Below, piece after piece: positions 2,833 through 32,114 of a DNA stretch of 64,000 nucleotides. Made by a program: the position numbers and the translations under genes. Position 1 is the first letter of the stretch, and each line of letters opens with the position of its first letter. The notes under the pieces were generated by a model. It was not told the origin of the DNA, did no database searches, and worked only from the letters and a program-made list of their open reading frames with translations. The DNA comes from Neolewinella litorea (GTDB lineage Bacteria > Bacteroidota > Bacteroidia > Chitinophagales > Saprospiraceae), in contig NZ_SRSF01000001.1 in the NCBI RefSeq assembly GCF_004803465.1, positions 62,501 through 126,500 of the forward strand. Direction: 5' to 3'.

Positions 2833-3744
2833 TCAGCGCACCAGCCCTTCTTCGCGTAGTTCCTTCAGCAACTTGTCCAGGACCCCATTGAGGAAGTCCT
2901 TACTCTTGTCCGTGCTGTACAGCTTGGAGATGTCCAGGTACTCGTTCAGGGTCACCTGCGGCGGAATGTTGTCGAACTCCAGGAATTCGGCGATGGCCAT
3001 TTTCAGCAGGATCATGTCGATGATAGCGACGCGCTCGGCGTCCCAGTTCTGCAGCACGGACTTGATGCGGGTTAGCAGTTGGTCGTTGGCATCGACCACG
3101 AAGGTGAGCAGCACCTCACCGAATTCGCTGACGGATTCCGAGGTGGACTCGTACTCCTGATAGAATTCCGCGCCTACGGGGAGCGCCTTGATGGTCTTCT
3201 TCATGGCACCGACTACCAGGCTCTTGTCCTCGGTCCACAGGGGAGAATGGTCTTCCACCATGGCCAGGAAAAGTTCCTGACCCTGCAGCCACTTGTACAG
3301 CGAGAGCAGCACCTTGGTGGTGTCGGCCGGTGCGGGTTCTTCGAGGGCGGCGTAGGTGGCGTAGGCTTCGGTGCCGAGGAAGTCGCGGTACAACTGCTTG
3401 ATCTGGTCGGCGTCGATCAGACTGCGCGTATGGTACCGGTCGTATAGTCGGCTGAGCTCTTTATTATCGCTTAGGGAACGGACGGCCGGATTGGTGGCCA
3501 GGGTGGCGCGGAAGTTCTTGTCCTCGTCGCTCGGTCGGAACTTGGCGTTGCGGGTGGCCAGATCCTGCTTGGCGTACTCACAGCAGCGCTGCAGGATCAG
3601 CAGGTTCTGCAGGTAGAGCTCGAAGGAGCGCTTCACCATCTGGTTGTAGTGGCTGCGGATCGCCCGGAGGTCATGGCGCTCCTGCCGCTGGGCGGCGTAA
3701 AGGACCTGCATGATCTTGATGCGAACGTTGCGGCGACTCAGCAT
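2833..3744 (-). CDS. nusB: Transcription antitermination factor NusB (long Bacteroidota form)
   Basis: 303 residues, about twice the length of E. coli NusB. The first helix (SRRNVRIKIMQVLYAAQ) and the C-terminal helices (AIIDMILLKMAIAEFLEFDNIPPQVTLNEYLDISKLYS) carry the NusB fold signature. The central ~130 residues are an extra helical insert usual for this phylum. NusB binds boxA RNA with NusE/S10 during rRNA transcription. It is last in a minus-strand run after the helicase and DoxX-like genes, 74 bp from the latter. Confidence 0.9.
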   Translation of the reverse strand: MLSRRNVRIKIMQVLYAAQRQERHDLRAIRSHYNQMVKRSFELYLQNLLILQRCCEYAKQDLATRNAKFRPSDEDKNFRATLATNPAVRSLSDNKELSRLYDRYHTRSLIDADQIKQLYRDFLGTEAYATYAALEEPAPADTTKVLLSLYKWLQGQELFLAMVEDHSPLWTEDKSLVVGAMKKTIKALPVGAEFYQEYESTSESVSEFGEVLLTFVVDANDQLLTRIKSVLQNWDAERVAIIDMILLKMAIAEFLEFDNIPPQVTLNEYLDISKLYSTDKSKDFLNGVLDKLLKELREEGLVR

Positions 3745-10825: not shown

Positions 10826-11557
10826 ATGATAACCGAAGATCGCCGCGAATTGAACGACCGGTTCCGGGAAGTCTTCCAGATTCTGGAGGACCGCGGAGAG
10901 ATCATCAAGAACGACCGTAATGGTCGGGGTCTGGGTGATTTTGCCAAGCGAATCCTGAACAACCGGTCCTACGGGCACATCATCCGGGCTTACCTTAATC
11001 CCGACGACAAACGCTGCATCAACTACGAGCAGGCCCGCCGCGTGTGCAGCGAGTACGGGGTCAACCAGGAGTACCTGCTGGAAGGCAACGGCACGCCCTT
11101 CGGCATGGACCTGCCCAAGGTGGCCGACATCAGCGGCGTGGAAGTAAAGCAAAACATCCTGTTCACCTCCGTAGAAGCCTTTGCGGGTGCCAGTGTTGAC
11201 GGCGACAGTTTCCTGCGGGAAGAGGCGCAGTTCTTCTCCCTGCCGGATCTCTTCGGTGACGGATTCGTGGCCTTCCCCATCAACGGCAACTCCATGGAGC
11301 CGGTCATCAACGACGGCGACGTCGTCATCTGCCGCCAGATCGCCGGCGTCCACGAGATCAAGGAAAACAAGATCTATGCCGTCCGCTCCAAGGGAAGCCT
11401 GTGGGTCAAGTACGTGCAGCCAATCAAGGACAGCAAGGGCCGAATCCACTCCCTCAAGCTCATCTCGGCCAACTACCTCGAGCACGACCCCTGGGTAGAA
11501 GACGTAGACAAGAATACCCGCCTTTATGAGGTGCAGAAGCGCATTAGCGACCTCTAG
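10826..11557 (+). CDS. LexA/CI-like transcriptional regulator (HTH + S24 peptidase domain)
   Basis: 243 residues. The N-terminal ~90 residues look like an XRE-type DNA-binding domain ending INYEQARRVCSEYGVNQEYLLEGNGTPFG. The C-terminal half is an S24 domain: Ser156 in NGNSMEPVINDGD and Lys195 in SLWVKYVQ form the catalytic dyad, and Ala120-Gly121 (AFAGAS) is a plausible self-cleavage site. The spacings (36 and 39 residues) are close to LexA and UmuD, so autoproteolysis under RecA control is plausible. It could be an SOS-type repressor or a phage-derived regulator now alone; no phage genes are adjacent. A terminator follows. Confidence 0.8.
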   Translation: MITEDRRELNDRFREVFQILEDRGEIIKNDRNGRGLGDFAKRILNNRSYGHIIRAYLNPDDKRCINYEQARRVCSEYGVNQEYLLEGNGTPFGMDLPKVADISGVEVKQNILFTSVEAFAGASVDGDSFLREEAQFFSLPDLFGDGFVAFPINGNSMEPVINDGDVVICRQIAGVHEIKENKIYAVRSKGSLWVKYVQPIKDSKGRIHSLKLISANYLEHDPWVEDVDKNTRLYEVQKRISDL

Positions 11558-11586: not shown

Positions 11587-11623
11587 AAGCGGTGGTCCGG
11601 ACCCAGGGCCGGGCCACCGCTTT
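11587..11623 (+). terminator. Rho-independent terminator of the S24 gene
   Basis: AAGCGGTGG / CCACCGCTT stem with additional GC pairs inside, followed by TTTGTCGTTT, about 30 bp after the stop. Confidence 0.75.
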
Positions 11624-11729: not shown

Positions 11730-12470
11730 CTTCCGCGCCGCGGAAGCATCGGTCTCTCCACGCGCCGCGGTAGCTCCTGACCCTCCACGCGCCGCGTGGA
11801 GTAAGGGTTAGGGCAGGTGACGCAGTTGCCCACGCGGCGCGTGGGCGGTCCGGCTGGTACCACGCGGCCTGATGCTCTCCCTTCTTCAATCGTAAGGGAC
11901 ATGACGTGAGGTCCACTCACCTTAAAATTGACGGAACCCTCCACTCACCGCGGTAGCTCCGGACCCTCCACGCGCCGCGTGGAGTAAGGGTAGGGTAGGG
12001 CAGGTGACGCAGTTGCCTACGCAGCGCGTGGGCGGTCCGGCGGGTACCACGCGGCCTGATGCTTTCTCTTCTTCAATTGTAAGGGACATGACGTGACGTC
12101 CACTCACCTTATAATTGCCGGTCCCTCAACTCACCGCGGAAGCCTCGGACCCTCCACGCGCCGCGTGGAGAAAGAGTCACACCAGGCAGGTGACGCAGTG
12201 GCCCATGCGGCGCGTGGGTGCTCCGGCTGGAACCACGCGGCCTGAGGCTCTCTCTTCTTCAATCGTAAGGGACATGACGTGACGTCCGCTCACCGTAAAA
12301 GTGCCGGTCCCTCAACTCACCGCAGAAGCCTCGGACCCTCCACGCGCCGCGTGGAGAAAGAGTCTCACCAGGCAGGTAGCGCAGCGGCCCGCGCGGCGCG
12401 TGGGTGCTCCGGCGGGTACCGCGCGGCGTGATGTTTTCACCTCTTCAAGTGTAGCGGAGATGCCTCGGCC
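11730..12470. repeat. Tandem array of four ~186-bp palindrome-bearing units (BIME-like)
   Basis: Four units lie between the convergent 3' ends of the S24 regulator and the GH3 gene. Palindrome A, CTCCACGCGCCGCGTGGAG, is perfect and identical in all four (11783-11801, 11966-11984, 12152-12170, 12338-12356). Palindrome B, CCCACGCGGCGCGTGGG in unit 1 (11829-11845), recurs with changes at 12016, 12202 and 12388. Each unit also carries CCACGCGGCC-like, TTCTTCAAT and GGGACATGACGTGA blocks; the last unit decays near 12460. A further 17-bp palindrome CTTCCGCGCCGCGGAAG opens the region at 11730. Unit 2 has a 4-bp expansion (GTAGGGTAGGG), which shifts the frame, so the short frames here are unlikely to be coding. 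Rest of 11624-12525: nothing else recognised. Confidence 0.9.
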
Positions 12471-12525
12471 ACTTATTGGCAAGCCAGGCTGGATAGAGCC
12501 GACTAAACACCGCAAAGCCTTCGCC

Positions 12526-31933: not shown

Positions 31934-32114
31934 GTTCTTTAGTCCTTTAGTTCTTCAGGCGGGTAGTTCTTTAGGCTGTTCGGCGCAGTGTCCGCAGAGA
32001 CAAGCAGTGAGGGAGGCACGACCTGTCCTTGATAACTGCAGCCTCTACCAGACTAAAGAACTAAATGCCTAAAGAACTAACTGCCTAAAGAACTAACCGC
32101 CTAATAGGCTAATA
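31934..32114. repeat. 16-bp tandem repeats with matching inverted arms before kdsC
   Basis: Three exact-length 16-bp units (GACTAAAGAACTAAAT, GCCTAAAGAACTAACT, GCCTAAAGAACTAACC) at 32051-32098 and a degenerate fourth (GCCTAATAGGCTAATA) ending at the base before the kdsC ATG. About 75-105 bp upstream lie reverse complements: GTTCTTTAGTC (31934-31944) and TAGTTCTTTAGGC (31964-31976). The arms could form a large cruciform or RNA stem enclosing 31977-32050. Confidence 0.8.

Follow-up and report, generated by a model that had tools for sequence, protein, structure and literature searches.

The window, by which we mean the whole 64,000-nucleotide stretch of Neolewinella litorea DNA analysed here, contains a tandem array at 11750-12448 with a period of 186 bp, 3.8 copies, 87% matches and a score of 942 (TRF, run on the window). 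The four-unit, ~186-bp repeat described in the initial annotation is thus real, and so is its position between convergent gene ends, the neighbours being a Peptidase_S24-domain gene on the plus strand and a GH3 family glycosidase gene on the minus strand. The conserved repeated element is only ~82 bp long, with ~104 bp of linker making up the rest of the period; the earlier remark that the unit is much larger than in BIME/REP arrays therefore falls away. The features of the locus are listed below, with bit scores from covariance model R1, which was built from 27 units of the N. litorea genome (alignment A1).

10826-11557, plus strand: flanking gene with a Peptidase_S24 domain
11587-11622, plus strand: terminator-like hairpin of the upstream gene, outside the array and conserved in N. 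marina
11734-11775, no strand: degenerate partial repeat copies before unit 1, 27-bp period (TRF row 11734-11796)
11776-11853, plus strand: putative REPIN unit 1, 78 bp; REP A 11776-11801, spacer, inverted REP B 11828-11853; 78.8 bits (in model)
11854-11958, no strand: linker 1, used in the sequence identity comparison
11959-12040, plus strand: putative REPIN unit 2, 82 bp; REP A 11959-11984, REP B 12015-12040; 81.4 bits (in model)
12041-12144, no strand: linker 2, used in the same comparison
12145-12226, plus strand: putative REPIN unit 3, 82 bp; REP A 12145-12170, REP B 12201-12226; 81.5 bits (in model)
12227-12330, no strand: linker 3, used in the same comparison
12331-12412, plus strand: putative REPIN unit 4, 82 bp; REP A 12331-12356, REP B 12387-12412; 78.3 bits (in model)
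12413-12470, no strand: remains of a fourth, diverged linker; the 104 bp compared (12413-12516) match linkers 1-3 at 61-64% identity
12526-15012, minus strand: flanking, convergent GH3 family glycosidase gene

Each element consists of CCGGA, two variable bases, the 19-bp palindrome A, ~30-35 variable bases, the 19-bp palindrome B and nnTCCGG. Read from its own end, palindrome B presents the same type of motif as A (CCGGAnn followed by a palindrome with a central C), and the element is therefore an inverted doublet. Palindrome A, CTCCACGCGCCGCGTGGAG, is the same in all four window units (11783-11801, 11966-11984, 12152-12170 and 12338-12356), an invariance already noticed in the initial annotation, whereas palindrome B differs among the units. 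The 15-bp cores of A and B are spaced 45, 49, 49 and 49 bp apart, start to start. This pattern had been read as a 4-bp expansion in unit 2, but unit 1 is better described as 4 bp short, since the four elements measure 78, 82, 82 and 82 bp and, of the 23 remaining copies in A1, 19 fall within 80-83 bp. Linkers 1-3 are mutually 87-90% identical, so that element and linker were probably duplicated as one piece. Elsewhere in the window, at 31934-31976 and 32053-32104, lie two adjacent tandem arrays with 16-bp units, GTTCTTTAGGCCGGTA and CTAAAGAACTAACTGC.

Copies in the genome and in a sister species

The 15-bp core CCACGCGNCGCGTGG occurs above chance in the N. litorea genome, with 46 sites at no more than one mismatch compared to two for a reversed-pattern control. 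A genome-wide search with R1 returned 30 full-length units in seven clusters at 57.9 bits or more (27 of them in the model, three outside it), which is a lower bound, as 150 of 3586 first-look candidates were scored. Besides the four units of the window there are six clusters elsewhere, with two units at 17 kb and two at 427 kb on contig C1, nine on C4, five on C6, seven on C10 and one on C36; single palindromes are present beside the full units. The inverted REP pair with a linker is present in each of the four window units and in the 23 remaining rows of A1, rows that had been chosen for this arrangement. Before A1 was made, one mispaired candidate of 28 was swapped by hand for its neighbour (L041:2749-2832), and a copy with a damaged palindrome B (L049:9688-9768) was omitted. 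Between clusters, identity is 0.914 in palindrome A, 0.842 in palindrome B and 0.342 in the spacer (31 units, 389 pairs). The identity, stem-pair and strand-bias counts were taken from alignment A3 after removal of 11 of its 51 rows, which were opposite-strand duplicates.

The family is thus multi-copy, dispersed and extragenic, as expected of REPINs or BIMEs, and each REP is able to fold as a stem-loop. Extragenic status was judged by gene homology in the window and at locus L040 and from mechanical ORFs elsewhere, some of which overlap units in the C1 427 kb, C4, C6 and C10 clusters. At the hairpin foot stands CCGGA, with two variable bases after it, in place of a 5' GTAG or GTGG tetranucleotide. 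Because of this foot, and because non-GT[AG]G REPs have been reported for a Bacteroidetes subclass, we class the array as a putative variant rather than a GTAG REP.

Several other repeats adjoin copies of the family. At L049 (G000 C10:9150-14800), units are interleaved with the palindromes CGGGCC-TGT-GGCCCG and GACGGCT-GAAA-GCCGTC, the first of which resembles repeats adjoining a RAYT-like gene in L125. Near 187 kb on contig C12 (L051:2300-3100), dense short repeats of the type GGTTCGTCACCTCCAGGTGxCGCATG stand beside single copies of palindrome B. Single palindrome B copies on contigs C2 and C34 (L044:3150-4100 and L053:2600-3500) are surrounded by long similar stretches, including GCCGGCCGGATGCCGGGCCGCGGC, which look like a larger duplicated repeat.

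A probe consisting of the 19-bp palindrome A, with up to one mismatch, matched one of 60 genomes, that of N. litorea, at four places, all in the window array; it is too specific for the family, because other copies have C-G rather than G-C at one stem pair. R1 run over 298 family genomes found N. litorea alone (1/298), with 15 candidates per genome, strict filters and N. marina possibly outside the sample. When the GTDB genome collection was searched for exact matches to a degenerate REP, seven stretches came up, six in Neolewinella marina MKG-38 and one in Nocardioides, a count that may omit records of the N. litorea genome itself. The Nocardioides stretch, judged from a scan, looks like chance in a G+C-rich genome. 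According to the initial annotation, a lack of further copies in any relative would be among the signs reducing the array to a local duplication; copies exist in N. marina, which speaks against this.

At the window site, the two convergent genes recur in N. marina, where the region between them is short and free of the array, 48 bp lying between the aligned flanks compared to 868 bp in N. litorea. The C4 array is likewise absent from its orthologous site (69 compared to 1311 bp). At the C6 site the N. marina region is of similar length (622 compared to 627 bp) and carries a related REP, CTCCACTCGCCGAGTGGAG, four times, with T-A instead of C-G at a stem pair (L151, G016 C17:90500-93000); no REP B is recognisable there. 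Four of the seven sites were compared: the family is present in both genomes at one, the RAYT locus described below, is lacking in N. marina at two, and is represented by a sister REP at one.

These comparisons bear on the idea that the array is a double-stranded DNA site, for example a cluster of operators for a protein that reads palindromes, of which the adjacent S24-domain regulator would be one candidate. The palindromes are symmetric and conserved between arrays, and the Peptidase_S24-domain gene does adjoin the array; N. marina, however, keeps that gene (89% DNA identity over the matched stretch) without the array, and six other clusters lie elsewhere in the N. litorea genome. Such a site does not predict an inverted doublet with CCGGA/TCCGG ends or an association with a RAYT, and we regard it as very improbable. 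Still less credible is that the element is a MITE belonging to a DDE insertion sequence of the classical kind, whose terminal inverted repeats would be CCGGA/TCCGG. The complementary 5-bp ends and the non-coding ~82-bp body would suit a MITE, but the ends are very short, conservation is highest in the two internal palindromes, and related copies flank a Y1-type ORF.

RAYT-like genes

The N. marina locus L091 contains ten R1 units scoring 35.7-80.9 bits, none of which is in the model. Six lie at 1622-2122, upstream, and four at 2936-3268, downstream, of an ORF of 172 codons (2256-2774), and their period is ~84 bp. Counts based on A3 take nine of the ten, the weak unit at 1958-2038 falling below the threshold of that alignment. 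The ORF scores 25.1 bits against Pfam Y1_Tnp (cut-off 23) and 30.1 bits, under the cut-off of 80, against NCBIfam REP_Tyr_transpos. N. marina thus has the arrangement of a REPtron, in which REPs of one family stand on both sides of a RAYT gene, and N. litorea does not. The likeness to BIME/REP arrays proposed in the initial annotation is borne out by these related doublets around a RAYT-like ORF, by the dispersed inverted REP doublets of N. litorea and by the palindrome arrays that other RAYT-like genes of that genome have of their own.

The reading frame of the N. marina ORF meets a TGA at codon 173, with the motif YILNNP downstream in the same frame. YILNNP corresponds to the catalytic-tyrosine motif in the motif table of PMC6006769. 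Since the stop precedes it, the product would be without this motif, unless the stop is a sequencing error; the ORF does not encode an intact transposase, in which a single open frame would span the HUH and tyrosine motifs. Of 21 genomes in the genus, 20 have relatives of the ORF, and the motifs of those inspected are mostly NHVH with WYVLNNP or near. The N. marina frame, with NHVH, W then A, and YILNNP after the stop, agrees in full with neither row 2.4 nor row 2.6 of the table in PMC6006769.

The N. litorea locus L040 aligns with L091 on either side, over 1515 bp at 83.7% and over 1767 bp at 80.2% identity. Between these syntenic flanks N. marina has the ten units and the RAYT-like ORF, and N. 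litorea has two units and no RAYT. Because both genomes carry units at one site, we infer that family and RAYT were present at this home locus in the common ancestor, and that the RAYT was later lost in N. litorea; alternatively, the RAYT could have arrived in N. marina alone. We failed to find a cognate RAYT anywhere in the N. litorea assembly (98.8% complete, 39 contigs), where the L091 protein has its best-scoring match at 36% identity and no match above 41%.

We also looked at the RAYT site across the genus. Of 36 matches listed, 16 loci were compared by protein and 12 were scanned with R1. The RAYT query matched N. marina alone among the 16, and of the 12 scanned loci only those of N. litorea and N. 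marina had strong R1 matches, with weak ones in L178 (19.4 bits) and, on the opposite strand, in L167. The upstream neighbour is visible in four of the 12 loci, which extend 1500 bp past the match, and so the comparison says little on timing. Outside N. marina, the protein nearest to its RAYT is 49% identical and is encoded at L099 (G002 C41:138040), a locus in which the palindrome GCACGCGGAGCGTGC occurs three times; its core is similar to that of palindrome B.

Each RAYT is described as paired with its own REP family (PMC8266576, PMC6006769, PMC3733652, PMC3116915). The N. litorea genome has four Y1_Tnp matches, and a protein search added two more, at C12:24756 and, weakly, at C34:210579. Five of these Y1/RAYT-like genes (L036-L039 and L125, at C12:366942, C3:34390, C36:120403, C23:220856 and C12:24756) were considered as the cognate RAYT and rejected; their flanks, read in part for L037 and L038, carry other palindromes. 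Several REP families thus seem to coexist in this genome. The IS200-like protein at L036:840-2480 has a YVERQKEHH motif and is flanked by ~120-bp repeats with GGGCCCGG palindromes. A similar motif is that of subclass 1.2, listed without REPs in PMC6006769.

Hairpins and strand preference

A model with two hairpins and a closing CCGGA/TCCGG stem pairs 94.9% of the alignment cells, compared to at most 50.1% for slid versions. Covariation in the 27-unit alignment is modest: five cells changed on both sides (two of 500 shuffles were as high), and two pairs changed on both sides (186 of 500 shuffles as high). In palindrome A, pair 15/21 is C-G in 27 of the 31 N. litorea units and G-C in the other four, all of them window units; related REPs of N. 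marina have T-A. In palindrome B, pair 68/74 is G-C in 28 of the 31 units, A-T in seven of the nine units of the N. marina locus and again G-C in scattered single copies of that genome. Each of these paired changes could be one event copied within an array. They preserve the hairpin on either strand, as DNA or as RNA, and a double-stranded DNA site would also keep the symmetry of the palindromes.

Through the change at pair 15/21, palindrome A of the window units has the core of B. With one core common to both stems, these units fold as one long hairpin; the one C4 unit that we folded gives two. A single long hairpin pairing REP A with REP B suits the window units. For the family at large it was rejected, since two of its pairs are broken in 23 of 27 units and it shows no more covariation than shuffles do.

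The initial annotation favoured a structured plus-strand RNA over a DNA site, on the grounds that most substitutions in palindrome B would give G-U pairs. The observation is correct in the window units, where five of five departures at paired positions of palindrome B are plus-strand G.T. Over 40 units (31 from N. litorea, nine from N. marina), with events counted once per pair, type and locus, there are 28 G.T and 13 A.C departures. The nominal p of 0.028 is optimistic, since copies within an array share descent. The counts are 5 and 6 in palindrome A, 12 and 4 in palindrome B (p 0.077) and 11 and 3 in the outer stem (p 0.057). A hairpin of single-stranded DNA can hold G.T pairs too, and for that reason such a bias would not separate RNA from DNA.

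A plus-strand transcript from between the convergent genes, with hairpins that serve stability, regulation or termination, would draw on this excess and on the folding of the units. As RNA, both strands of all four window units fold better than nearly all shuffles (0-2 of 200 as good; z -2.8 to -5.1), and there are two plus-strand promoter-like sites in the linkers, 12088-12115 and 11901-11928, compared to 0.2 expected in the region. However, the two strands fold about equally, palindrome A is unbiased, and as DNA both strands of the two units that were folded also do better than nearly all shuffles (0-1 of 200 as good). Terminator-like sites are without clear excess, two found and 0.9 expected, one of them outside the array, and a scan of the window with Rfam 15 gave no match at the gathering score. 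N. marina has both neighbouring genes without the array, and the remaining clusters adjoin different genes. With a weak bias and both strands folding beyond shuffles, the preference for RNA is not established, and we consider this reading improbable.

Interpretation and significance

Our preferred interpretation, to which we give a probability of roughly 0.87, is that the array is a tandem cluster of REPINs (inverted REP doublets, or BIMEs) which were spread by a RAYT via hairpins of single-stranded DNA and are now probably orphaned. As far as sequence comparison goes, it fits the REP/REPIN pattern in its anatomy, in the association with a RAYT in the sister species and in its presence and absence at orthologous sites. 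The hairpins, folded in single-stranded DNA, would have been the target of a RAYT (an HUH/Tyr single-strand DNA transposase), which would have relocated REPINs, or inserted copies of them, between genes in this lineage. The 186-bp array may then have arisen when an element and its linker were duplicated locally, and loss of the RAYT in N. litorea and its truncation in N. marina would have left an orphan family. The array might also have a side effect on its convergent neighbours, for example by blocking read-through.

Comparable clusters are known from Pseudomonas fluorescens SBW25, where REPINs are tandemly repeated together with their flanks, the largest cluster having four REPINs and more than 700 bp (PMC3116915). 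The family described here shares with those REPINs the inverted doublet as its unit, the tandem clusters of REPIN plus flank and the clusters adjoining RAYT genes; it differs in its CCGGA foot, its Bacteroidota host, the 30 full-length units found as opposed to hundreds of doublets, and the failure to find a cognate RAYT in N. litorea. E. coli BIMEs also consist of a REP and an inverted REP separated by a linker, often in tandem copies, and the E. coli TnpA-REP recognises the REP as single-stranded DNA (PMC8266576). Unlike E. coli BIMEs, the present elements lack the GTAG tetranucleotide, and their consensus stem is a perfect palindrome with a 3-base loop and without a conserved bulge.

TnpA-Y1 subclass 2.6 of Bacteroidetes is reported to have atypical, non-GT[AG]G REP structures (PMC6006769). 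The likeness extends to the Bacteroidota host, to non-GT[AG]G REPs flanking a RAYT-like gene and to copies elsewhere in the genome. With respect to the REP dimers of PMC3733652, 27 of the 31 N. litorea units resemble heterodimers in having different stems, and the window array resembles homodimers in that its two stems share one core; unlike those dimers, the elements belong to neither the GTAG nor the CGTC family. A limited literature search for the family in Neolewinella took in PMC6006769, where the term 'Lewinella' does not occur.

It is rather unlikely, in our estimation, that the REPIN family outlived its transposase and is retained, or amplified locally, because it serves the host, or else is cross-mobilised by one of the unrelated RAYTs in the same genome, with the change in palindrome A as an adaptation to the orphan state. 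If this were true, the gain of the B core by palindrome A, and with it the passage from two hairpins to one long hairpin, would be such an adaptation. Whichever reading holds, the two genomes provide a snapshot of a REPIN family whose RAYT is truncated in one species and missing from the corresponding site of the other; at further sites, just one of the two species has arrays. This adds a well-defined non-GTAG type of REP in Bacteroidota, and makes it testable in marine bacteria whether REPINs persist, decay or gain a role after the loss of their transposase.
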